Source of the DNA: Pseudophaeobacter sp. EL27
GTDB taxonomy: Bacteria > Pseudomonadota > Alphaproteobacteria > Rhodobacterales > Rhodobacteraceae
Reading direction: 5' to 3'
Length of the DNA stretch: 64,000 bases
Assembly: GCF_900313025.1 (NCBI RefSeq)
Contig: NZ_OMPQ01000002.1
Location: 1 to 64,000 of the forward strand
The stretch's first letter is position 1; every line of letters begins with the position of its first letter. Positions 1,614 through 58,028 of this stretch are shown here, one piece after another. Under the pieces are notes generated by a model. It was given only the letters and a program-made list of their open reading frames with translations, ran no database searches and was not told the origin of the DNA. The position numbers were made by a program, and so were the translations under genes.

Positions 1614-4600
1614 CTACAGGTCTACTTCGATAACACCCTGCTTTGTAGCGGCGCGAGACTGGCACAAAATCACGGCCTCTTTGCGCTGCGCCTTTGACAA
1701 GACAAAGTCGCGGTGCTCGACCTCACCAGAAACAAGGCCGCATTTACAGACGCCGCAGATGCCGTCAGAGCATTTCACATCAATGTGGTGACCATTTTCC
1801 AGCAGCACATCGGTCGCAGTTTTATCTGCGGGCACCTCTAGCACCTTACCGGAACGGGCCAGTTTGAGGGTGAAGGCATGGTTTTCATATTCCGGCAGCT
1901 CCGGCACCGAGAAGTATTCCAGATGACGCGCCTCCTCCGGGAAGCCCTGGCGGGTCGCCGCTTGCATTACCCCCTCCATGTAGCGATCCGGGCCGCAGGT
2001 ATAGACATGCTGCCCCGCCGCGTAGCCTGCAAGCAGTTGATCCAGATCTGCACGTGTCCCTTCAGCTGAGACATGGATATGAACCCTGTCGGACCAGGGC
2101 ATTTTGGCCAGATCCTCCAAATAGCCTGCCCCTGCCCGGTTCGAGATCGAGTAGTGTAGCTCAAACTCCTGGCCCAGCGCATGCAGGCGATGCGCCATGG
2201 CAATCATCGGCGTGACGCCAATACCACCGCCCATGAGGTAGGATTTCACCGCGCCCTCATTGAGCGGGAAGTGGTTGATCGGACGCGAGATGAAGATTTT
2301 GCGGCCCTCGGCAAAGATCCGGTGCAACAGCTGGGAACCGCCACGGCCTGCGTCTTCGCGCAGCACCCCAATCTGGTATTTGGAGCGATCCACCGGATCG
2401 CCAGACATCGAGTACTGACGCAGGTATTCCGGCGCCACCACGATATCGAGATGCGCCCCGGCACTCCATTCCGGCAGCGCACTGCCGTCCAGGCTCTGGA
2501 ATTCATATTTGGTCACATCCGGGCTCATGGCCTGGACACGCGACACCCGCACGCCCAGCACCGGGCTGTCAACATCATTGCTGTAGCGGTGATCCCATGC
2601 CCCGGTCTCACCTTTGGCACGCCGGGCCTTGTATTCCTCTGCGGTGATCATCTGCTGATAGGCCTCAATCCCGGCCTCTCGGTCCATCGGAAAAGGATAT
2701 GGCCAAGGATGAGGGGCCAGATGCGCCGGATAAACCGCCAGGGTCTGATCCTCATGCTTCAGATCCAAATCCTTTTGCAGGGCGCGCGCATTGACCGGAT
2801 GGCGCGTCGGGCGATAGCCGCCGTCCTCTTCCATCTCCAGATCCCACCACCATTTCTTGGCCGGGTTCATCTCACCATTGCCCAGCGCATCGTCAAGCTT
2901 GGCCAGCACAGGTGCTGCCTTTGGCAGGTTCATCGCCGCCCAGCGGAAGGGACGTTCCGCAAAGATGCCTTCCAGATTCCAGGGGCAGGTCTTCATGCAA
3001 CGTCCACACATGGCGCCGCCCGGCGTTGTGATCCGGTAGGTGGTGCATTTCTGACTGTCCGATTTCCAGATCTCATAGCCGTTGAACATCAGCTTTGGCC
3101 CGGCGGTGATCGCCCCCGAGGGGCATTCGCGGGCGCATTTGTTGCAGGCCTCACAGAATTTTTGCAAGCCAAAGTCAATTGGCTTGTCATGATCCATCGG
3201 CATATCCGTGGTCACCACACCGGATTTCAGCCTTGGGCCAAGGAAGGGGTTGAGGATCACCTCACCAATGCGGCTGACTTCGCCCAGTCCAGCCATCAAC
3301 AACAGCGGCGGCTGCAAGACCTCCCCATCCATCACCGTATGGGCCTTGGCCTTGTAGCCGAGGTTGCGGATCTGGCGGGCGATGACGCCCCCCAGCAAGG
3401 AAAACCGCAGATAGGCCCGCATCGACTGCGCCACCGCAATCCAGTCATCACCCGAGGTGCCCTCGGTGGTGTCAAAGCCCTGATCGACAATCATGCTGAT
3501 CGCCTGATCATGATCGGGGTGGATTTCAGCCCCCGTGGCATCATGGCTATACCAGGTCCAGTCCGGGCAGCGGCTGATACCAACCGCATCGATGCCCAGC
3601 CAATAGCTGGCGGCTTTGACATTGGCCGCATTACGGGCTGCATCACTGGGGCGCGGGCCATCGGCGGGCGTGCCGTCCTGCAACAAGACAAAGGCCCCCA
3701 GCATCCGGCGTTGCGCCATCGAGGGGGCAGCCTTGCGCACATAAAAGCCGCCGGTCGCCGCCTTTTGATTGCCCTTGCCCATGTCGCCGAACTGGCTGCG
3801 GGCGAACATGTCGGTGCGCTTGGGCACCCGCGCCACATTGGGCTCATCAATATAGGTGGTGGGATCCTCCACCCGCTTCAGCGTTTCAAAGGGATGCGGC
3901 CCATCCTTGAAATCGCGCGCCTTATAGGGATCACTGTTGAGGGCCGAGCGTTCAGAGCCAAGGCCCAGCCACCACTTCGGCCCCTTGACCTGCATCATCG
4001 GCTGCTGATCCAGCGGCAGCAGCGGGCGGTCCACCGCCAGATCAAAATCGGTGGTCACCACCGCCAGACCAAAGCGCCCCCCCAGATAGGGGCTGACCAG
4101 ATACCCATCTTGCAATGTGACCAGACCAGCTGCCACAGCCAGCTGGTTGAGGTCCACATCCGACGAGGTGGAAGTATGGGCCTTGGCATCCCAGCCCAGC
4201 AGCCGGATGTAATTGGCCAGCACCACGGCAGTTTCGCTGGCCCGCAGGCAGGCGCGGTGCTGCTCTGCCCCCTGGATCCACTCCGCGCCCTCCTCGTCCG
4301 GGCGCGGATCGCGCGGCATATCATAAAGGAAGACAATGGCGTGTTTGTGATCGCCGATGGTGGTGGGCGGCGCCTGCATCGCCTCCTTGAGATCGGCCAT
4401 GATATGGTCAATCCCCGCTGCCAGGGTCTTTGTCTGGCGGGTTTTCAGATCCTGCGACAGACGATCAATGCCCGGATTACGATAGGGCTGCGCCAGCCGC
4501 GCCGAGGCGGGAACCGGGCCAATACCAACCATCGACGCATCAGAGAAATAGCCAAAGGCCTTGATATGATCGGCGCGCTCCTGCGGGTCACTCGGGCAGC

Positions 4601-4823
4601 TGGCCTGTGCCTTATTCACCAACCCGTCACGGATCGCATCCATCATCGCCTGGTATTCCCCCATGGCATTGACGATCGAGGCAGGCGCGGTTGGTCGGCG
4701 AAACTCCAGCGGCTGCGACCTCGGCACCGCGCCCAGATCCGGCATTGGCCCGCGCACCAGTCGCTCCATCGGAAAGGGGCCCAGATGGATCGGGCGCTGC
4801 CGGGTTGAAAAGACTTTGGTCAT
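1614..4823 (-). CDS. Self-sufficient reductive dehalogenase fused to an FMN/NAD/[2Fe-2S] reductase
   Basis: About 1069 residues, numbered from ATG 4823; an upstream TTG at 4856 is less likely. Residues 1-660 resemble the cobalamin-dependent catabolic reductive dehalogenases (BhbA, NpRdhA). Two ferredoxin-like clusters are visible: Cys557, 560, 563 and 567 (CEACNKCARECP) and Cys593, 606, 609 and 613 (CGRCMKTCP). Ser467, Tyr471, Lys533 and Arg597 keep the spacing that I recall for NpRdhA Ser422, Tyr426, Lys488 and Arg552. Residues 750-980 form a phthalate-dioxygenase-reductase-like module: RQYSMSG for flavin, GGGIGVTP for pyridine nucleotide. The C-terminus holds a plant-type [2Fe-2S] domain (Cys1018, 1023, 1026, 1054). 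There is no Tat signal, so the enzyme should be cytoplasmic and draw electrons directly from NAD(P)H. By analogy the likely substrates are halogenated phenols or hydroxybenzoates. A LuxR-type regulator is divergent. Confidence 0.9.
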   Translation of the reverse strand: MTKVFSTRQRPIHLGPFPMERLVRGPMPDLGAVPRSQPLEFRRPTAPASIVNAMGEYQAMMDAIRDGLVNKAQASCPSDPQERADHIKAFGYFSDASMVGIGPVPASARLAQPYRNPGIDRLSQDLKTRQTKTLAAGIDHIMADLKEAMQAPPTTIGDHKHAIVFLYDMPRDPRPDEEGAEWIQGAEQHRACLRASETAVVLANYIRLLGWDAKAHTSTSSDVDLNQLAVAAGLVTLQDGYLVSPYLGGRFGLAVVTTDFDLAVDRPLLPLDQQPMMQVKGPKWWLGLGSERSALNSDPYKARDFKDGPHPFETLKRVEDPTTYIDEPNVARVPKRTDMFARSQFGDMGKGNQKAATGGFYVRKAAPSMAQRRMLGAFVLLQDGTPADGPRPSDAARNAANVKAASYWLGIDAVGISRCPDWTWYSHDATGAEIHPDHDQAISMIVDQGFDTTEGTSGDDWIAVAQSMRAYLRFSLLGGVIARQIRNLGYKAKAHTVMDGEVLQPPLLLMAGLGEVSRIGEVILNPFLGPRLKSGVVTTDMPMDHDKPIDFGLQKFCEACNKCARECPSGAITAGPKLMFNGYEIWKSDSQKCTTYRITTPGGAMCGRCMKTCPWNLEGIFAERPFRWAAMNLPKAAPVLAKLDDALGNGEMNPAKKWWWDLEMEEDGGYRPTRHPVNARALQKDLDLKHEDQTLAVYPAHLAPHPWPYPFPMDREAGIEAYQQMITAEEYKARRAKGETGAWDHRYSNDVDSPVLGVRVSRVQAMSPDVTKYEFQSLDGSALPEWSAGAHLDIVVAPEYLRQYSMSGDPVDRSKYQIGVLREDAGRGGSQLLHRIFAEGRKIFISRPINHFPLNEGAVKSYLMGGGIGVTPMIAMAHRLHALGQEFELHYSISNRAGAGYLEDLAKMPWSDRVHIHVSAEGTRADLDQLLAGYAAGQHVYTCGPDRYMEGVMQAATRQGFPEEARHLEYFSVPELPEYENHAFTLKLARSGKVLEVPADKTATDVLLENGHHIDVKCSDGICGVCKCGLVSGEVEHRDFVLSKAQRKEAVILCQSRAATKQGVIEVDL

Positions 4824-4890
4824 GATGGCCGGGCCTTTGAGCTGGGATCTGTGCAAGTGCCTTGACTATTCCACGAGGGCAGTCTCAGTC

Positions 4891-4910
4891 TGTCACCCGA
4901 ATGAGTGACA
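4891..4910. promoter_or_regulatory. Inverted repeat between the dehalogenase and its divergent regulator
   Basis: TGTCAC at 4891-4896 and GTGACA at 4905-4910 form a perfect 6-bp dyad with an 8-bp centre. It lies in the 77-bp gap between the dehalogenase start (4823) and the regulator, and runs over the regulator's ATG (4901). This position would suit an autoregulatory operator. It is an inference from symmetry and location only. Confidence 0.35.
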
Positions 4911-5689
4911 CATTTCCCCCCAGACCTCTCCCCCGAGACGATGTTGCCGCGCTTGCAGCCGCCACTGTCAGGCCGGATTTTGCTAGCCACTTGCTCAGCT
5001 ATATCCGCGAGGCCGCTGAGATTGCCAATTTTGGCACCTTCTATGTCGCAGATATGTCCCGCCCCGCGCCGGTCCTGTCGATCTGGGCCGGAGAGATGAG
5101 CGGCTATTGGTTCAACCGCAATGCCAGCACAATCCTGAAAGATGACCGCCTGATGCAGAGCATTCTGCAACGGATCCGCGCCTCCGAGGGCAACGGGCTG
5201 GTGATCGAGCGCTGGCGCCCCACCCCAGATGATCCGATCGGCCCGATCTATGCCCGCGATCAGGTGATTGAGCGGGTCACTGTCTCATCCTTAAGCGACC
5301 GGGTTGGCTTTCAGTCCTTCTTTCTACGGGGGGAGAAATCTGGCTGGATTTCCGATCAGGAGATGCAGCGCCTGCAACAGGTTCTGCCGCTGGCGCATGA
5401 ACTCATCGGATTGCGACACCGGATTGCCGGGGCCGCCGCCATTGGACAGGCTGCCAGTGCGCGGGCCTCGACCCTGCGGGAACAGGATGCCGGCCCCTTT
5501 GGGGCGCTGACCCCGCGCGAGGCTGAGGTCTGTGACCTTGGCGTGCAAGGCATGAGCGTTGCAGGTACGGCGCTGGAGCTGGGCGTATCAGAGAACACCA
5601 TCCGCACCCTGCGCCGCCGCGCCTATGGCAAGCTGGGGGTTCATTCCTCTACCCAGATTGCCACGCTGATCCTCAACGCTATGGGCTAA
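4901..5689 (+). CDS. LuxR-type HTH transcriptional regulator
   Basis: A protein of 262 residues from ATG 4901; a TTG at 4862 would add 13. The last 65 residues are a LuxR/GerE helix-turn-helix: LTPREAEVCDLGVQG, then GVSENTIRTLRRRAYGKLGV. The N-terminal 180 residues do not resemble a receiver domain and may be a ligand-sensing domain. Being divergent from the dehalogenase gene, with an inverted repeat between them, it is the obvious candidate controller of that gene, possibly responding to a haloaromatic. It converges on pxpA with 6 bp between stops. Confidence 0.85.
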   Translation: MSDTFPPRPLPRDDVAALAAATVRPDFASHLLSYIREAAEIANFGTFYVADMSRPAPVLSIWAGEMSGYWFNRNASTILKDDRLMQSILQRIRASEGNGLVIERWRPTPDDPIGPIYARDQVIERVTVSSLSDRVGFQSFFLRGEKSGWISDQEMQRLQQVLPLAHELIGLRHRIAGAAAIGQAASARASTLREQDAGPFGALTPREAEVCDLGVQGMSVAGTALELGVSENTIRTLRRRAYGKLGVHSSTQIATLILNAMG

Positions 5690-5695
5690 GACAGA

Positions 5696-6484
5696 CTAGC
5701 CTTGCCGTCCGCTGAACTGCGCCAGCTTAACACCACCCGCCTCTAGACTGCTGCGCACCGATTTTGCCAGCTCCACCGCCTCAGCCGTATCGCCATGCAG
5801 GCAGATGGTGTCGATCGAGGTTGGGATACGTTTGCCGCTCTCGGTAATGATTGCGCCTTCCTGTACCATCTGCAGGATGCGCGGCCCGGCCAGCGCGGCG
5901 TCATGGATCACCGCCCCCGGCAAGGAGCGATCCACCAGAGTGCCATCATCGTTATAGGCGCGATCAGCAAAGATCTCGCCGCACCAATTGCAGCCCAGCT
6001 CGCGCACCACATCTTCCATCGCGGTTGCCGCCAGAACCATGATGATGATATCCGGATCGACCTCCAGCGCCGCCTCATAACAGGCACGCGCCATATCGTG
6101 ATCAACGCAGGCCATGTTGGAGAGCGCCCCGTGCAGTTTCAGATGCCGGACTTCAGTGCCCAGCGCCCTTGCCATGCCCTGAGCCGCGCCCAGTTGGTAA
6201 CGGACCATATTGCCGAGACCCGCTGCAGACATATGCATCTTGCGACGGCCAAAGCCCTGCAAATCGGGAAAGCCGGGATGGGCGCCGATGCCAACCCCAT
6301 TGTCCCGCGCCAGCGTCATGGTCGCCGCCATCACATCCGGATCACCCGCATGAAAGCCACAGGCGATATTGGCGGAGGTCACGATATCCAACAGCGCGGT
6401 GTCATCCCCCATGTTCCAGGGGCCAAAGCTTTCGCCCATATCCGCGTTGAGATCGACAGTTTTTGCCGTATCCGTGGTGCTCAT
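5696..6484 (-). CDS. pxpA: 5-oxoprolinase subunit A (LamB/YcsF family)
   Basis: A protein of 262 residues with the family signatures DLNADMGESFG near the N-terminus, GFHAGDP, GAHPGFPDLQGFGRR and KLHGAL. PxpA works with PxpB and PxpC in ATP-dependent opening of 5-oxoproline (pyroglutamate) to glutamate, removing a damage product of glutamine and glutamate. The start codon overlaps the stop of pxpC by 4 bp (ATGA), indicating translational coupling. It is the last gene of pxpB-pxpC-pxpA. Confidence 0.93.
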   Translation of the reverse strand: MSTTDTAKTVDLNADMGESFGPWNMGDDTALLDIVTSANIACGFHAGDPDVMAATMTLARDNGVGIGAHPGFPDLQGFGRRKMHMSAAGLGNMVRYQLGAAQGMARALGTEVRHLKLHGALSNMACVDHDMARACYEAALEVDPDIIIMVLAATAMEDVVRELGCNWCGEIFADRAYNDDGTLVDRSLPGAVIHDAALAGPRILQMVQEGAIITESGKRIPTSIDTICLHGDTAEAVELAKSVRSSLEAGGVKLAQFSGRQG

Positions 6485-7512
6485 GTGATATCTCCAGTGT
6501 CAAACGGGTCCGCCTGGGCCGAGATCACCCCGCCGACCAGTTGATAAGAAAGCAGATCCTGCATCAGTGCCGGATCGCGCAATAGGGGCTTGCAAGTCGA
6601 GGGCAGCGCTTTCATCAGGGCATCCTGTTTGGCCTGTATCGCCAGCCCCTCGTCTAATGAAACCCAATTGAATTGCAGATCCACCCCAGCCTGCGCCTGC
6701 GCTACCTTGCTCAGATCACAGGGCAGGACCGTACCAATCCGGGGATAGCCGCCGGTGGTCTGGGCCTCGCGCAGCAGCACGAAGGGTTTGCCATCGCCGG
6801 TCATCTGCACATCGCCCGGCAGAATGATCTCGGACAGGATATTGAGCTGCCCCGCCGCTGCGAACCCTGCGCCGTCAGAGACCATCTCGACCCCCATCCG
6901 GTTGGCACGGCCCCCGCGTTTAAAAGCAGTATCGGCAAAGCGCGCACGGACCTCAGCGTCAAAGAGATCCGACTGGAACCCCTCGACAATCCGCAAAGCG
7001 CCGCCCTGAAAACGATCCTCAGCCTGCAGCCCAAGCCCGACCTCACGCCCTGGGTCCGCGCCACAGGGCAGTAGATCGCCAACCGCCACCGGATTGCCGA
7101 GGCCAGACATCAAATGCACTGCACGGGCACCGAGCTGAACCGCGCTGTCGATGCCGCCGCCCAGGTGCAGATAGCCGTAGACGCCTTTGCGCGCAGCTCC
7201 AATTTCGAGTTTTTGCCCGGCCAGCATCTGGTGCGAGGCATTCCAGGCCAGGTTTTCGCCATCAAGGCTCGCCTGCATTGGCGCGCCTGTGAGGGCAATA
7301 CGCATCGGGGATGTGGCCTCAAACAGGCCGCCGATGCCAGCCATTTCCAGCGCTGCCAGATGCATATCCTGCCGCAACAGGGCCGCACCTTCGGCCAGGG
7401 CCAAAAGATCCGCCGCCCCGCCACGAGACACCCCCTGCTGCAATTGCCCGGGGCGCCCCTGATCCTGGATCGAGGCAAGAGGACCAATGCGAAGAACCTT
7501 GAGTGCGTTCAT
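6481..7512 (-). CDS. pxpC: 5-oxoprolinase subunit C (biotin-dependent carboxylase-like domain)
   Basis: A protein of 343 residues from ATG 7512 (MNALKVLRIGPLASIQDQGR). The segment SIQDQGRPGQLQQGVSRGGAAD is the classic start of the AHS2/KipA-type domain, and the later PRIGTVLPCDL also fits. It forms the oxoprolinase with PxpA and PxpB. It overlaps pxpA at its 3' end and pxpB at its 5' end by 4 bp each. A TTG or GTG further upstream would extend it into pxpB and is not favoured. Confidence 0.92.
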   Translation of the reverse strand: MNALKVLRIGPLASIQDQGRPGQLQQGVSRGGAADLLALAEGAALLRQDMHLAALEMAGIGGLFEATSPMRIALTGAPMQASLDGENLAWNASHQMLAGQKLEIGAARKGVYGYLHLGGGIDSAVQLGARAVHLMSGLGNPVAVGDLLPCGADPGREVGLGLQAEDRFQGGALRIVEGFQSDLFDAEVRARFADTAFKRGGRANRMGVEMVSDGAGFAAAGQLNILSEIILPGDVQMTGDGKPFVLLREAQTTGGYPRIGTVLPCDLSKVAQAQAGVDLQFNWVSLDEGLAIQAKQDALMKALPSTCKPLLRDPALMQDLLSYQLVGGVISAQADPFDTGDIT

Positions 7513-8258
7513 GCCGGGATCTCCTCGCGGCTGGCACCACCAAAATGGCTGTCCTCCAGACAAAAGCGATCATAATCGGATCTACTGACCGGCGTAAAAA
7601 TCATCTCATCCCCCGGCCGCAGGGCGATAGGATCCTCTGCCCCCAGCTGAAAGCCGCGAAACCCTGTCTGCCCGACGTGACGCCAGCCGGTGGGCGCGGT
7701 GGTGGCAAAGAGCACAAACTGGCTGATCGCCAGCACCAGCGCCCCAGTCGGCACCTGCGGTGTCAGCTCTGTCTGGCGCGGTAGGTTCCATTCCGCGCCC
7801 AGCGGCCCCAGATAGGGCTGCCCCGGCGCAAATCCAATGGTCAAGACCCGCACCCGCGCGCTGCCCAGGCTTTCAACGGCCTGCGCCTCACTCATGCCAG
7901 CAGCATCGGCAGCCTCGGCCAATTGTGGCGCCAGCCCGGTGCCAAAGACCGTCGGCACCCGCCACAACCGCCGCCCCGGGGGCAGCGCCGCCTGTTGCCA
8001 ATCCTGTGTCTCTAGCAAGGCCAAGAGCAAATCTTTGAGCGCCGCATGGCACAGCGCAGCGCTGTCAAAACGCAGAAAGACAGAGGCCAGCGAGGTCGAG
8101 ACCTCCTGAACCCCCGGCCATGCGCAGGCCTTCACCGCCTCGCTAAAGGCCAGAGTGGCGCGATTGGACGGTTCGCTCAAGGCATCCGCAAATGTCACCA
8201 GCATACCGTCCAATCCGGCGGTGCGAATGATTGGAAAACTCAACGCGCTTTGTGTCAC
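7509..8258 (-). CDS. pxpB: 5-oxoprolinase subunit B (allophanate hydrolase subunit 1-like)
   Basis: About 249 residues from GTG 8258, which has AGGGGG 8 bp upstream. An ATG at 8333 would add 25 residues (MKSKGILTLGWPAVTVARYF) that do not look like the family, so the GTG is preferred but not certain. Family hallmarks are LTIGFAPGQPYLGPL, with QTELTPQVPTGAL and TGWRHVGQT (AHS1/KipI type). First gene of pxpB-pxpC-pxpA. Confidence 0.88.
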   Translation of the reverse strand: MTQSALSFPIIRTAGLDGMLVTFADALSEPSNRATLAFSEAVKACAWPGVQEVSTSLASVFLRFDSAALCHAALKDLLLALLETQDWQQAALPPGRRLWRVPTVFGTGLAPQLAEAADAAGMSEAQAVESLGSARVRVLTIGFAPGQPYLGPLGAEWNLPRQTELTPQVPTGALVLAISQFVLFATTAPTGWRHVGQTGFRGFQLGAEDPIALRPGDEMIFTPVSRSDYDRFCLEDSHFGGASREEIPA

Positions 8259-8471: not shown

Positions 8472-9923
8472 TTAAAAATCGTCCCAACCCGCCGGAGCAC
8501 TATGCGCCGAGGCCACGCCCCCAGTCCCGGTGCCGGCCTGTGCCATGACCGGGGCAGCAAGGGTCTCGTGCTGGAGCGGCATGGGCACCACGTTTGAGCC
8601 ACCTGCTCCGCCATTGTTCGACTTGACCTTGAAGGCGCCCAATTGCTGGGTCAATTGCCCGGCATCATTGGAGAGCGTATGGCTAACGGCGGTGGTTTCT
8701 TCGACCATGGCAGCGTTTTGCTGGGTCACCTGATCAAGCTGCACCACACCGGTGTTGATTTCGGAGAGGGCCGAGGACTGCTCAGCTGCACCACGCGCGA
8801 TATCGCCGATATGGACAGAAATTGTACCGACACTTTTGATGATCCGTTCCAGCTCCTCTCCGGTTCGGCCCACCAGATCAACACCGCTGGTCACATGATG
8901 CTGGCTCTGAGCAATCAGATCCTTGATCTCGCCAGCCGCATCGGCAGAGCGCTGCGCCAATCCGCGAACCTCAGAAGCCACAACAGCAAAACCACGACCG
9001 GCCTCCCCGGCTCTTGCGGCCTCGACTCCGGCGTTCAGCGCCAGAAGGTTGGTCTGAAAGGCAATGTCGTCGATCACGGTGATGATCTTGGCAATTTCAT
9101 CCGAAGAGCCTTCGATCTTTGACATGGCGTCAATGGCCTCTCCAACCACAACACCGCTTTTGGTGGCGACAGCCTGCGCCTCGCCCACGATCACTTCGAC
9201 CTTTTTTGCCCCGGTCGCTGAGGATTGAACGGTAGTGGTCAACTCCTCTAGCGCGGCGGCGGTTTGTTCCAGAGTGGCGGCCTGGCTTTCAGTTCGCGCC
9301 GACAGGTCACTGGAAGACTGGCTGATATCACCGGCAGTCCGTCCAACTCCGACAGAAACCGTTTTGGCATTTGTGACCGTGGCTTCCAGCTGTTCAACGG
9401 AATCGTTGAAGGCCCTTCCGAGGTTGCCAATGTCAGCGATATCCGACACCACAACCCGGTGGACAAGGTTCCCATGCCGTAGCGCGTCCAGCCCTTCGGC
9501 AATCGCGCCCAGCCCACGGCGCCGCGCAGTCACATCGCTGGCGACCTTTACTACGCGCTCCACAGTTCCGTCAGCCCCGGCGCAGGAGGCATAGGTCGCC
9601 TGAATCCAGATTGTAGATCCATCCTTGGCTAAACGGGGAAACTGGTCAGTGATATCTTCACCCTTGGCCAACCTCTGCCAAAAATCCTTATATTCAGGGC
9701 TTTGCGCAATATCCTGCGCGACAAACATCGAATGATGCTGGCCGACGACTTCCTCCAATTCATAGCCAACAGCCTGCAGGAAGTTCTTGTTTGCCGTCAA
9801 AATCACGCCCTGTGGGTCGAACTGAATGGTCGCCTGCGTGCGGTCAATCACCCCTGCAATGACCTTGCTCGTCTCAACTTCGGAACTCTCTTTTTGAGAC
9901 TTTTTCTTGAAAAACAATGTCAT
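8472..9923 (-). CDS. Soluble PAS-domain methyl-accepting chemotaxis protein
   Basis: A protein of 483 residues without signal peptide or membrane segments, hence a cytoplasmic receptor. Residues 20-135 form a PAS domain ([20 protein letters not shown]), followed by a HAMP-like linker (about 140-190) and the long coiled-coil signalling domain (about 200-430). The hairpin tip reads [36 protein letters not shown]; it contacts CheA and CheW. The protein ends in GWDDF, resembling the xWxxF tether that recruits CheR and CheB. The PAS domain may sense redox or energy state, as in Aer-like receptors. No che genes are nearby. Confidence 0.92.
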
Positions 9924-10235
9924 ACTCCACGTGCAATCTGTTCAATACTCGCAAAGTAGATACCTCTGGAATTCCTTTTTTTTTCTTAATCACAACGGGT
10001 GACCCCTACGTAAAGCCAGATAAGTGATCATTTTTTTGATAACAAAATAGGCACATGCCTGCCAAAATCTCTGCAACACGGCCAAAGCCTGGGCACAACT
10101 ACGAGCTCATCTACATATAAATGTTTCTCTTTTTGAGAGCGAGCGCCTTGGATCGCACAGATTCGTCCAGGCGCAGGCGCTTTGCGGAGGGCTGTTCCAA
10201 ATGTTCGCCGAGCGACAAAAGCACCTGCGAATTTC
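9924..10235. other. A/T-richer spacer upstream of the chemoreceptor
   Basis: This 312-bp gap lies between the start of the chemoreceptor and the 3' end of the glutaredoxin-like gene. It is clearly poorer in G and C than its surroundings, with T-runs around 9978 and 10032. It must hold the chemoreceptor promoter, but no -35/-10 pair stands out. Small frames on both strands here look like chance. Confidence 0.5.
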
Positions 10236-10607
10236 TTAGCTCTGTTTCAACGATGGCAGATCCGTCTTTGGGTCCGTCAGCAACGCTTGCAGTTCCGAAT
10301 ATCCACCTACAAGCCTCTGGTCGACAAAGACCATGGGGAAAGTTGCCCAGCCCGACCACATCTTGAGAGCCAGTCGTTTGTGCCACTGCGAGGTATAGCT
10401 GCCGTATTCAAGATAGGTGAAAGGAATACCTGCCGCCTGCAGCGCCTTGCGCGCTTTTGAAACGAAGGGATTGTACTTCATCCCAATCACCACAACCCCA
10501 TTGCCAGTGACCGCCGTGATGGCCTCTTGTACTATGTCTCTGTGGTAAGTGCTGATCGCGGCATCAATAGCAGGATGAATGGCGTCTGGGCTGAGCAGCT
10601 GGCGCAT
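10236..10607 (-). CDS. Glutaredoxin-fold protein lacking cysteine
   Basis: A protein of 123 residues. The segment VVVIGMKYNPFVSKARKAL aligns with the active-site region of glutaredoxins, and WSGWATFPMVFV followed by LVGGYSEL is the glutathione-binding part (TFPxVFV, GG). The C-P-x-C active site is replaced by N-P-F-V, and the whole protein contains no Cys. It therefore cannot do thiol-disulfide exchange; it may bind glutathione or a protein partner instead. The start at 10607 gives a normal family length. It precedes the MBL-fold gene by more than 100 bp and is probably transcribed alone. Confidence 0.75.
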   Translation of the reverse strand: MRQLLSPDAIHPAIDAAISTYHRDIVQEAITAVTGNGVVVIGMKYNPFVSKARKALQAAGIPFTYLEYGSYTSQWHKRLALKMWSGWATFPMVFVDQRLVGGYSELQALLTDPKTDLPSLKQS

Positions 10608-45999: not shown

Positions 46000-46644
46000 T
46001 TAGCCGAGCACCTTGGCGATATCATCGCGCACCGCTTCCATCGAACTCAGACCATCAATCGAGGTCAGATCCCCTTTGGCATAGTAATAGCCAAGCAGCG
46101 GAGAGGTCTTTTTGTAATACTCCATCAGACGGGTTTTGAGGCTGTCCTCATTATCGTCCGCACGGCGTTTTACGTCGGTGCTGCCACAGTTGGTGCATTT
46201 GCCGTCAGCGGCCCAGGGTTTGGTCTCATCGTGATAGACTTCACCGCAACCGCCGCAGGTCGAACGACCCGTGATACGGGCAACAAGCGCGGCGTCATCC
46301 ACCGCCATCTCGATCACCGCGTCCAGGGACAGACCCATTTCCGCCAGCAATTCACCCAGGGCATCAGCCTGCCCCAGCGTGCGGGGAAAGCCGTCAAAGA
46401 TGAATCCCCCTTCGGCGCCCTCAGCGATTTTCTCACGGATCAGGCCAATAACGATCTCATCTGTTACCAGCTCACCACGGGCAATCACGTCCGCGACCTT
46501 TTTGCCCATCTCGGAGCCATTGGCCTGCGCTTCGCGCAGCATGTCACCGGTGGAGAGCTGAACCATACCGCGGCTGTCCGTCAGGTGGCGCGCCTGCGTG
46601 CCCTTACCGGCGCCGGGTGGTCCCAGGAGGATAATATTGGTCAT
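46000..46644 (-). CDS. adk: Adenylate kinase (zinc LID type)
   Basis: A 214-residue enzyme: [13 protein letters not shown] (P-loop), [13 protein letters not shown], and a LID with CGGCGEVYH...CTNCGS, four cysteines that should bind zinc. It interconverts AMP, ADP and ATP. Its start overlaps secY by 4 bp. Confidence 0.98.
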
Positions 46645-48005
46645 CGGCGAGACGGCCCCCGTTTTGCACGTTTCTTGTTGCGTCCCCGCAGCTGGCTCTT
46701 CTCGATGAGCCCCTCATACTGGTGCGCCAAGAGGTGGCTCTGGGCCTGCTGGATGGTGTCCATTGTCACAGAGACCACAATCAGGACCGAAGTGCCGCCG
46801 AAGTAGACCGGGAAGGCAAACTGGCCGCGCAGCACTTCGGGCAGCAGACAGACCAGCGCCAGATACATCGAACCCAGAACCAGAACCCGGTTCACCACAT
46901 ATTCGATATATTCAGCGGTCTTTTTGCCGGGGCGAATGCCGGGCACAAAGCCGTTCTGGTTCTTCAGGTTATTCGCAACATCCTCGGGCTTAAACGCCAC
47001 GTTGAATGTATAGAAATAGGCAAAGAACACGATCATCGAGACAAAGAACAACAGGTACAGCGGCTGACCGGGGCCAAAGTTGGCCAGCATCCAGGACATC
47101 ACCGGACCGTTGGTTGCACCGGAAGAGAAGGCAGAGATCGTTGTTGGCAGCAGCAAAAGCGAGCTGGCAAAGATCGCCGGGATAACGCCTGCTGGGTTCA
47201 CTTTGACCGGCAGATGCGAGGAGCCACCATCATAGACCTTCATGCCGACCTGACGGCGCGGGTACTGGATGTGGATCTTGCGCAGGGCGCGTTCCATAAA
47301 GACCACAAACATGATCACAGCAATCACCATCAGGATCACACCGATGATCACGGCAGGGCTGATTGCACCGGAGCGACCGGAGGCAAAGAACTGCGCGATA
47401 GAGGCCGGAACTTCGGCAATGATGCCTACAAAGATGATCAGCGAGATACCGTTGCCCAGACCACGCTGGGTGATCTGTTCGCCCAGCCACATCAGGAACA
47501 TGGTACCACCCACCAGGGTGATCATGCAGGCCATGCGGAAATACATGCCCGGATCGGTCGCCAGATCACCGGCCTCAAGCGAGACCGCCAGACCATAGGC
47601 CTGGGCTGTTGCCAGCGCCACGGTGCCGTAACGGGTGTATTGGTTGATTTTCTTCTGCCCCTGAGCACCCTCTTTTTTGAGTTGCTCAAGTGCCGGAACC
47701 ATCGAGGTCAGCAACTGGACAATGATCGAGGCCGAGATATAGGGCATGATCCCGAGGGCAAAGATGCCCATACGGCCAAGGGCGCCACCGGTGAACATCG
47801 ACACCATGCCGCCAATGCCCTGCCCCGCCGCTTCCATAAAGTTGCGAAGGGCGTTGGCGTCGATGCCGGGAACCGGAATAAAGGTGCCGAGGCGATAAAC
47901 GATCAAAAGGCCAAGCGTAAACAAGATGCGATTGCGCAGATCCGTGGCTTTGCCAAGTGCGGACCAGCTGGTGTTCGCTGCCATTTGTTCTGCTGCTGAT
48001 ACCAT
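46641..48005 (-). CDS. secY: Protein translocase subunit SecY
   Basis: A 454-residue protein with ten expected membrane helices, starting near [29 protein letters not shown]. The GGGTALIVVSV-like segment near the end reads [18 protein letters not shown]. It is the main channel of SecYEG. It overlaps adk by 4 bp and lies 110 bp after rplO. Confidence 0.98.
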
Positions 48006-57081: not shown

Positions 57082-58028
57082 TTAGCGACCGACAGCGCAA
57101 CATAGCAATCCCCGCATCTGCTCAACGACAGGGTTCGGTTTCCAGATTGTTGATGTGGTCGCCTTGGTGCCAGATGATGTTTTCCGGTTCCTGATCTTCA
57201 CTTCCTGCTGGCAATGGTTCCAGCGCCACAGTATTTCGATCAGGTATCTTTGAAGATGCTGTCGGCCGAGGCGGTGAAATACACCGATCAATGCGCGCTG
57301 CACTTGAGAGTTCACAGCTTCCACGGTGTTGATATGCGCTCCCTTGGAAGACCACGAATATTGTCGTTTGCCATGGTTGGCAGTGTAGTGAGCTGCGAAA
57401 CTTTGACCGATCTTCCTGTAAGCCAAATTGCTGTCGGACCTGAGGGCCGATGAGGGATCAATCCAGTTTTTCATGATTGGCGTCAGGGTTGCAGCTCGCG
57501 CATTCGGGATCAGCGCCGCCTTTGCCTGCCCATTGCGATCCGCTGCAACCAGCACCATTGGTTTACCTGTGCCCCGGCCTCGTTTGTTCTGCACACCCTT
57601 CTTGAACTTGGGGGCACCACCGACATATGCCTCGTCCACCTCGACAACGCCGTTCAACCTTGCGGAAACAGCCTCGCGGTCATCCATCAATTCCCGGATC
57701 GCATGGCCCATTTTCCACGCTGTCTTTTGGTTCACTCCCAAGATCCGCGCCATAACGACAAAGGAAATTCCTTTGCTGGACTTCAGAACCAGAAAGAATG
57801 CTGCAATCCAGACGCGGAGATCCAGTTTTGTAGCATGCAAAGGAGACTTGTTGTGACAGTGAATTGAAGGCGACATTCCCGCTCCGAGCACTGATAGAGA
57901 CCAGGGCGCGCAGACCGGCGTCGAATTGGTGTTGAGCTAAGGCTCCCACAATGTGGGCAATGGCGACCAGACGGCCAGATCATCGCTTCGAGGAAGATGC
58001 GAGACAGGAGCCCTGCCTGATAGTGCAC
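57082..58028 (-). pseudogene. Frameshifted IS1595-family (ISXO2-like) transposase
   Basis: The N-terminal part is in one frame (58028 leftwards) with zinc ribbon CPHCGS...CSEREC and FTVTT; the rest is in another (to 57082) with SPLHATKLDLRVWIAAFF, VVEVDEAYVGGAPKFKKG, RSDSNLAYRKIG and NTVEAVNSQVQRALIGVFHRLGR. The DDE-type residues are recognisable. One added A at 57847-57854 (ACAACAAG) would join the frames, so a single-base deletion inactivated it. The N-terminus may also be truncated. No terminal inverted repeats or target duplication were established. Confidence 0.85.

Follow-up and report, generated by a model that had tools for sequence, protein, structure and literature searches.

A predicted reductase-fused reductive dehalogenase in Pseudophaeobacter sp. 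EL27

We analysed a 64,000-nucleotide stretch of the Pseudophaeobacter sp. EL27 genome (contig NZ_OMPQ01000002.1, positions 1 to 64,000; hereafter, the window), concentrating on the minus-strand segment 1614-4823, a single ATG-started frame of 1069 residues that we call rdhA. The gene and its parts, as assigned by profile searches, alignment to the structurally characterised reductive dehalogenase NpRdhA and model comparison, are as follows:

1614..4823, minus strand: rdhA, predicted self-sufficient (reductase-fused) catabolic reductive dehalogenase, 1069 residues (profile, phmmer and model matches)
4353..4514, minus strand: residues 104-157, an insert not aligned to NpRdhA, which has 12 residues there (gap between two aligned phmmer stretches)
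4023..4589, minus strand: putative vestigial duplicate of the cobalamin-binding core in the N-terminal half (weaker TIGR02486 stretch; model fit to NpRdhA)
2877..3539, minus strand: catalytic reductive dehalogenase core (TIGR02486), carrying Ser467, Tyr471, Lys533 and Arg597
3423-3425, 3411-3413, 3225-3227 and 3033-3035, minus strand: codons of Ser467, Tyr471, Lys533 and Arg597, respectively (alignment to NpRdhA)
2985..3155, minus strand: two [4Fe-4S] sites, Cys557, 560, 563, 567, 593, 606, 609 and 613 (alignment to NpRdhA)
1908..2561, minus strand: flavin mononucleotide (FMN)/NAD(P)H reductase part, approximately residues 755-972, with RQYS (802) and GGIGVTPM (866) (phmmer, conservation, model)
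1617..1871, minus strand: [2Fe-2S] plant-type ferredoxin part, approximately residues 985-1069, with Cys1018, 1023, 1026 and 1054 (Pfam, conservation)

As judged by hmmscan against NCBIfam, the rdhA product matches the reductive dehalogenase family TIGR02486 with 205.3 bits, the cut-off being 160.35. In a profile search of the genome, this match fell into two stretches: 2877-3539 scored 162.4 bits, whereas 4023-4589, with 47 bits, stayed below the cut-off. The weaker stretch is consistent with a vestigial second cobalamin domain, a feature that has been named as a mark of catabolic RdhAs (PMC10463259). An insert has also been described in fusions of RdhA with phthalate dioxygenase reductase (PDOR) (PMC10463259). 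In Pfam, the product matched the Fer2 and 4Fe-4S dicluster models, and the dehalogenase model PF13486 gave no match at E≤1. Among PDB chains, phmmer matched NpRdhA from Nitratireductor pacificus (PDB 4ras, 6zxu, 6zxx, 6zy0, 6zy1) at 4e-163 and PDOR at 4e-52, and the predicted structure fits NpRdhA over residues 1-739 and also matches PDOR. Inspection by eye of the first 40 residues revealed no RR pair of a twin-arginine translocation (TAT) signal. With TIGR02486 over its cut-off and both NpRdhA and PDOR matched by sequence as well as by model, the enzyme identity and domain order that an earlier note had read from this DNA are upheld: by its sequence, the rdhA product belongs to an established group of enzymes, the self-sufficient catabolic RdhAs, and it very probably acts as such in the cytoplasm.

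Catalytic residues and cluster ligands are conserved in all 116 fused sequences

In the phmmer alignment, NpRdhA residues S422, Y426, K488 and R552 correspond to S467, Y471, K533 and R597 of the window protein with a constant offset of +45, and all eight [4Fe-4S] cysteines coincide. To gauge conservation, we assembled 116 fused sequences (the window protein included) from 127 full-length BLAST rows by removing identical sequences and the rows that came from the window itself; the split or partial copies L118, L119, L120 and L098 were excluded. The four residues, the eight [4Fe-4S] cysteines and the four [2Fe-2S] cysteines are invariant in 116/116. A further 19 rows match the dehalogenase half alone (55-90% coverage, below 60% identity), although contig ends may have truncated some of them: here the Ser, Tyr and Lys are present in 19/19 and the Arg in 18/19, with one gap, and overall these sites and the [4Fe-4S] cysteines are kept in 18-19 of the 19, one row being gapped at four sites. 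The equivalence of the four residues with the active site of NpRdhA, which had been proposed from their spacing, is therefore borne out by alignment. In the split copies L118 and L119, from two genomes (G269 and G099), the gene is divided into two overlapping frames at different places, which may reflect decay or sequencing error.

Comparison with characterised enzymes and a proposed mechanism

One of the closest known systems is JtRdhA (WP_104007082) of Jhaorihella thermophila, which shares with the window protein a Rhodobacterales host, the duplicated RdhA core, two [4Fe-4S] clusters, a C-terminal PDOR with FMN and [2Fe-2S], the lack of a TAT signal and the conserved Tyr, Lys and Arg. Identity to NpRdhA is approximately 39% for JtRdhA (PMC10463259) and 44.5% (258 of 580 aligned residues) for the window protein. 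JtRdhA is reported to act on brominated and iodinated phenolics, using NADPH one to one, and to be active in air; the chlorinated compounds tested inhibited the enzyme rather than serving as substrates, and none of them was turned over (PMC10463259). BhbA, encoded on plasmid pBHB of Comamonas sp. 7D-2, matches the window protein over residues 3-1069 with the same domain order and is 50.6% identical to it in the RdhA part; its gene adjoins catabolic genes on a plasmid typed as conjugative. While NpRdhA shares the catalytic core, the clusters and the four active-site residues with the window protein, it lacks the fused reductase and the stretch 104-157.

By analogy with NpRdhA and JtRdhA, a hydride from NAD(P)H would pass to FMN in the C-terminal reductase, from which single electrons would reach the cobalt of cobalamin by way of the [2Fe-2S] cluster and both [4Fe-4S] clusters. 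There, the substrate, an ortho-halophenol and most likely a brominated 4-hydroxybenzoate or similar compound, would bind with its halogen coordinated to the cobalt and its phenolate held by Ser467, Lys533 and Arg597; Tyr471, paired with Lys533, would supply a proton. Bromide or iodide would then be released, and the phenolic could enter ordinary aromatic catabolism (4-hydroxybenzoate via PobA). The window protein is best read as removing bromine (and iodine) from ortho-halophenolics aerobically, since the fused JtRdhA, also from Rhodobacterales, does so in air, using NADPH (PMC10463259); dechlorination is doubtful because no chlorinated compound tested was turned over by JtRdhA. Of the earlier note's suggestion that the host removes halogens from marine bromo- or chlorophenolics aerobically, the bromo part is thus retained and the chloro part is in doubt.

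Cobalamin supply genes, sought elsewhere in the genome as the earlier note had advised, were found: CobU exceeds its profile cut-off, as does CobN when two pieces in one frame are combined (1044 bits in all, with a single TGA in the second piece), and synthesis of cobalamin by the host is likely. A 4-hydroxybenzoate 3-monooxygenase (PobA), also over its cut-off, is encoded elsewhere in the genome, so that debrominated hydroxybenzoate could be used.

Substrate pocket, gene context and alternative readings

To examine gene context, we surveyed 8 kb around rdhA in 81 loci, namely the window and the best 80 of 336 related places in GTDB contigs, rdhA being called in 78 of them. A homologue of PobA (a flavin adenine dinucleotide monooxygenase, 56-64% identical to the PobA of this genome) adjoins rdhA on the same strand in 5 of the 81 (L059, L084, L088, L091 and L097), and the genes of BhbA and of the Nitratireductor OM-1 protein adjoin protocatechuate or hydroxybenzoate genes. 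On account of this linkage, brominated 4-hydroxybenzoates are the likeliest substrates.

The predicted pocket sets the window's clade apart. Among the 116 fused sequences, 105 have V464, 112 have V497, 108 have Y361 and 102 have M339. BhbA and the OM-1 protein have F, S, S and A at 339, 361, 464 and 497 (over seven pocket sites, BhbA reads F-F-K-Y-S-S-A and the window protein M-F-T-F-Y-V-V) and form a separate branch in a quick tree (Shimodaira-Hasegawa-like approximate likelihood ratio test support 100; the root row, the short reductive dehalogenase described below, sits on a very long branch). Among the 19 dehalogenase-half matches, the prevailing residues are G at 464 (19), N at 497 (17), F at 361 (17) and F at 339 (16). 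Tyr361, Val464 and Val497 of the aligned pocket thus separate the window's clade from BhbA and NpRdhA. A419 of NpRdhA lines the site of the second bromine (PMC7565698), and the larger valine at this position may change substrate preference.

Several observations weigh against reading rdhA as a gene for the dehalogenation of bromophenolics. Five pocket residues of NpRdhA differ in the window protein (F290 to M339, K307 to T357, P311 to Y361, A419 to V464 and N452 to V497), so that the best substrate may differ. The genes beside the window's rdhA encode a glycosyltransferase, a LuxR-type regulator and pxpABC, with no aromatic gene among them, and no neighbour is conserved family-wide across the 81 loci. 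Finally, the AlphaFold model, for which the input alignment consisted solely of relatives of at least 68% identity, has predicted local distance difference test values below 50 at residues 553-627, where the [4Fe-4S] clusters sit.

It is somewhat unlikely, as we see it, that the natural substrate is not a bromo-hydroxybenzoate but another marine halophenolic, such as a breakdown product of halogenated tyrosine, to which the clade's pocket is tuned. Such specialisation would account for M339, Y361, V464 and V497 being mostly kept in the fused set and different in BhbA, the OM-1 protein and the dehalogenase-half matches, as well as for the window copy not lying, as BhbA and OM-1 do, beside protocatechuate or hydroxybenzoate genes. 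However, four of the five loci with an adjoining PobA homologue (L059, L084, L091 and L097, the four present in the tree) share the window's Tyr, Val, Val pocket, and JtRdhA, the sequence of which was not compared, performs best on 3,5-dibromo-4-hydroxybenzoate and 3-bromo-4-hydroxyphenylacetate (PMC10463259). A possibility of similar weight concerns the role rather than the substrate: that the enzyme detoxifies halophenolics instead of supporting growth on them, as would be suggested by the window's rdhA standing alone, with a regulator of its own but no catabolic genes linked to it; against this, PobA encoded elsewhere in the genome and adjoining rdhA in five relatives means that the debrominated hydroxybenzoate could be used.

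That the protein is an epoxyqueuosine-reductase-like (QueG) enzyme is very improbable: while these class III cobalamin enzymes are related and TIGR00276 does give 25.2 bits, its cut-off is 200, TIGR02486 is over its own cut-off, and the substrate-binding Ser, Tyr, Lys and Arg and the fused reductase are features of dehalogenases. A respiratory RdhA would carry a TAT signal, of which the first 40 residues show no RR pair, and would have the membrane-anchor partner RdhB beside it; the two flanking genes that were scanned are those of the glycosyltransferase and the LuxR-type regulator. Elsewhere in the genome, on contig C4, a 362-residue frame with a weak match to the reductive dehalogenase model could be the QueG of this strain.

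A divergent LuxR-type regulator and a candidate operator

Upstream of rdhA lie a regulatory gene on the opposite strand and two conserved elements:

4901..5689, plus strand: LuxR-type (GerE) regulator, divergent from rdhA (GerE, 6.3e-11)
4891..4910, no strand assigned: 20-bp dyad TGTCACTCATTCGGGTGACA, operator candidate, one arm lying over the luxR start and first codons (motif scans, alignment)
4861..4869, minus strand: conserved block ATAGTCAAG between the dyad and rdhA, possibly a promoter element of rdhA (conservation)

The dyad is unique in the window at up to 3 mismatches, as compared to a mean of 0.00 in 100 shuffles. Across 11 aligned loci, chosen for having the dyad, it is conserved together with the block TAGTCAAG, which is invariant; the block between the dyad and rdhA is not kept in L096. 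A LuxR-type homologue is encoded just upstream of rdhA on the opposite strand in 13 of the 80 related loci (tblastn, E≤1e-20; 10 loci by clustering). A looser dyad, TGTCAY-N8-RTGACA, is found in 12 of the 80 (1.51 Mb), always shortly before rdhA, and all 12 fall among the 13 that encode the regulator homologue; the thirteenth, L081, has a diverged regulator (46%) and no looser dyad. The looser dyad is absent from all 67 loci that lack the regulator, although in four of these fewer than 900 bases precede rdhA, so that a regulator could have been missed. The dyad loci are related (their RdhAs are 71-94% identical to the window's) and one dyad arm is under coding constraint, so the association does not amount to 12 independent events. 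In the strain's own genome, the looser dyad occurs at 7 places and a reversed control pattern at 0. Taken together, the divergent LuxR-type regulator probably controls rdhA expression at the predicted 20-bp operator. A literature search on LuxR-type control of reductive dehalogenases returned no entry with the term reductive dehalogenase among the matches listed, and the term is absent from the main text of PMC10919026.

L032 and L033, which have no LuxR-type gene, carry another inverted repeat, formed in L032 by GATGTTGGA and TTCCAACATC, at most approximately 130 bases upstream of the rdhA match.

A predicted second reductive dehalogenase, of a short type, in the same genome

The genome encodes another protein of the reductive dehalogenase family outside the window:

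9222-10421 of locus L112 (73224-74417 of contig C10 of genome G000), minus strand: predicted short reductive dehalogenase of the Ros_A3X954 type, 399 residues (TIGR02486, 169.2 bits, over cut-off)

Its gene is followed by one that we take to be pirin-like, and the 18 kb around it contain no dyad at up to 3 mismatches. The protein carries the motifs CDICTKCADACP from residue 283 (283-294) and CAICMRVCP from residue 337 (337-345), and the same motifs are quoted at the same positions for Ros_A3X954 of Roseobacter sp. MED193 (PMC13101508). This Roseobacter debrominase, a member of the reductive dehalogenase family as is the window protein, converts 2,6-dibromophenol to 2-bromophenol and is reported to be oxygen-sensitive (PMC13101508). 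The short protein of MED193 (91% identical to that of our strain) comprises 395 residues from its MSWPQ start, a length that leaves no room for a second core or a reductase. As in Pseudophaeobacter sp. EL27, both types are encoded in the MED193 genome, the fused protein being 92% identical to the window's. The fused enzyme is present in 28 of the 40 family genomes with the short one and in 81 of the 255 that lack it (Fisher p 6e-6, not corrected for kinship); these 81 make up the rest of the 109 genomes in which the fused enzyme occurs. On plasmid pBHB, a second long frame (1086 residues; NC_021077.1, approximately 46612-47358, minus strand) matches the short enzyme and is perhaps a second fused RdhA.

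Distribution of the fused enzyme

The title of the earlier note had implied a rare find. Within the same family (Rhodobacteraceae), however, 109 of 295 genomes have a match that covers 93% or more of the protein (247 have any match, in many cases to the reductase half only), in keeping with a published account of putative bhbA homologues as widespread across the Roseobacter clade (PMC13101508). This type of enzyme had been described before and is common among relatives, and the claim of rarity has to be dropped. Of 385 alphaproteobacterial genomes, 31 match at 1e-70; 26 of these lie outside the family, four with full-length matches and the others with the dehalogenase half. The best 80 of the 336 related places have best-segment identities of 68-94%, and 79 of them span residues 6-1063 or more (L098 ends at residue 872 beside masked bases); by record title, 60 are Rhodobacterales, 14 Hyphomicrobiales-type and 6 only Alphaproteobacteria. 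Eight plasmid records, pBHB among them, carry a copy that matches 80% or more of the query length. In the sea, roseobacters as well as bromophenols are abundant (PMC13101508), and the presence of the enzyme in 109 of 295 family genomes supports the already published view that such bacteria join in marine bromine cycling.

Going further, Alphaproteobacteria, and roseobacters above all, might possess a dedicated fused clade with a Tyr361/Val464/Val497 pocket tuned to one common marine halophenolic, one branch being switched by the LuxR-type regulator at the 20-bp dyad and 28 of the 109 genomes pairing the enzyme with the short oxygen-sensitive one, so that one cell could debrominate both with and without air. 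Taken as a whole, we regard this scenario as unlikely. The clade-wide pocket signature and the regulator-dyad pair offer simple handles toward the natural substrate and the inducer.

Other features of the window and its relatives

A 5-oxoprolinase pxpABC-type set lies beside rdhA at 5696-8243, and genes of this type recur within 8 kb in 15, 15 and 13 of the 81 loci. In a few loci, rdhA has nearby an aldehyde dehydrogenase gene (6, not adjacent), a tripartite ATP-independent periplasmic (TRAP)-type permease gene (5) or a sulfatase gene (4). Between 43366 and 63998, ten long plus-strand frames have no PHROGs family match at 0.001, and the seven of them given to Pfam have none at 1e-10; these frames may be antisense shadows. 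The segment 10728-11813 encodes a metallo-beta-lactamase fold protein with quinoprotein relay zinc hydrolase as its best NCBIfam match, below the cut-off, and an IS1595-type transposase is encoded at 57082-57891.

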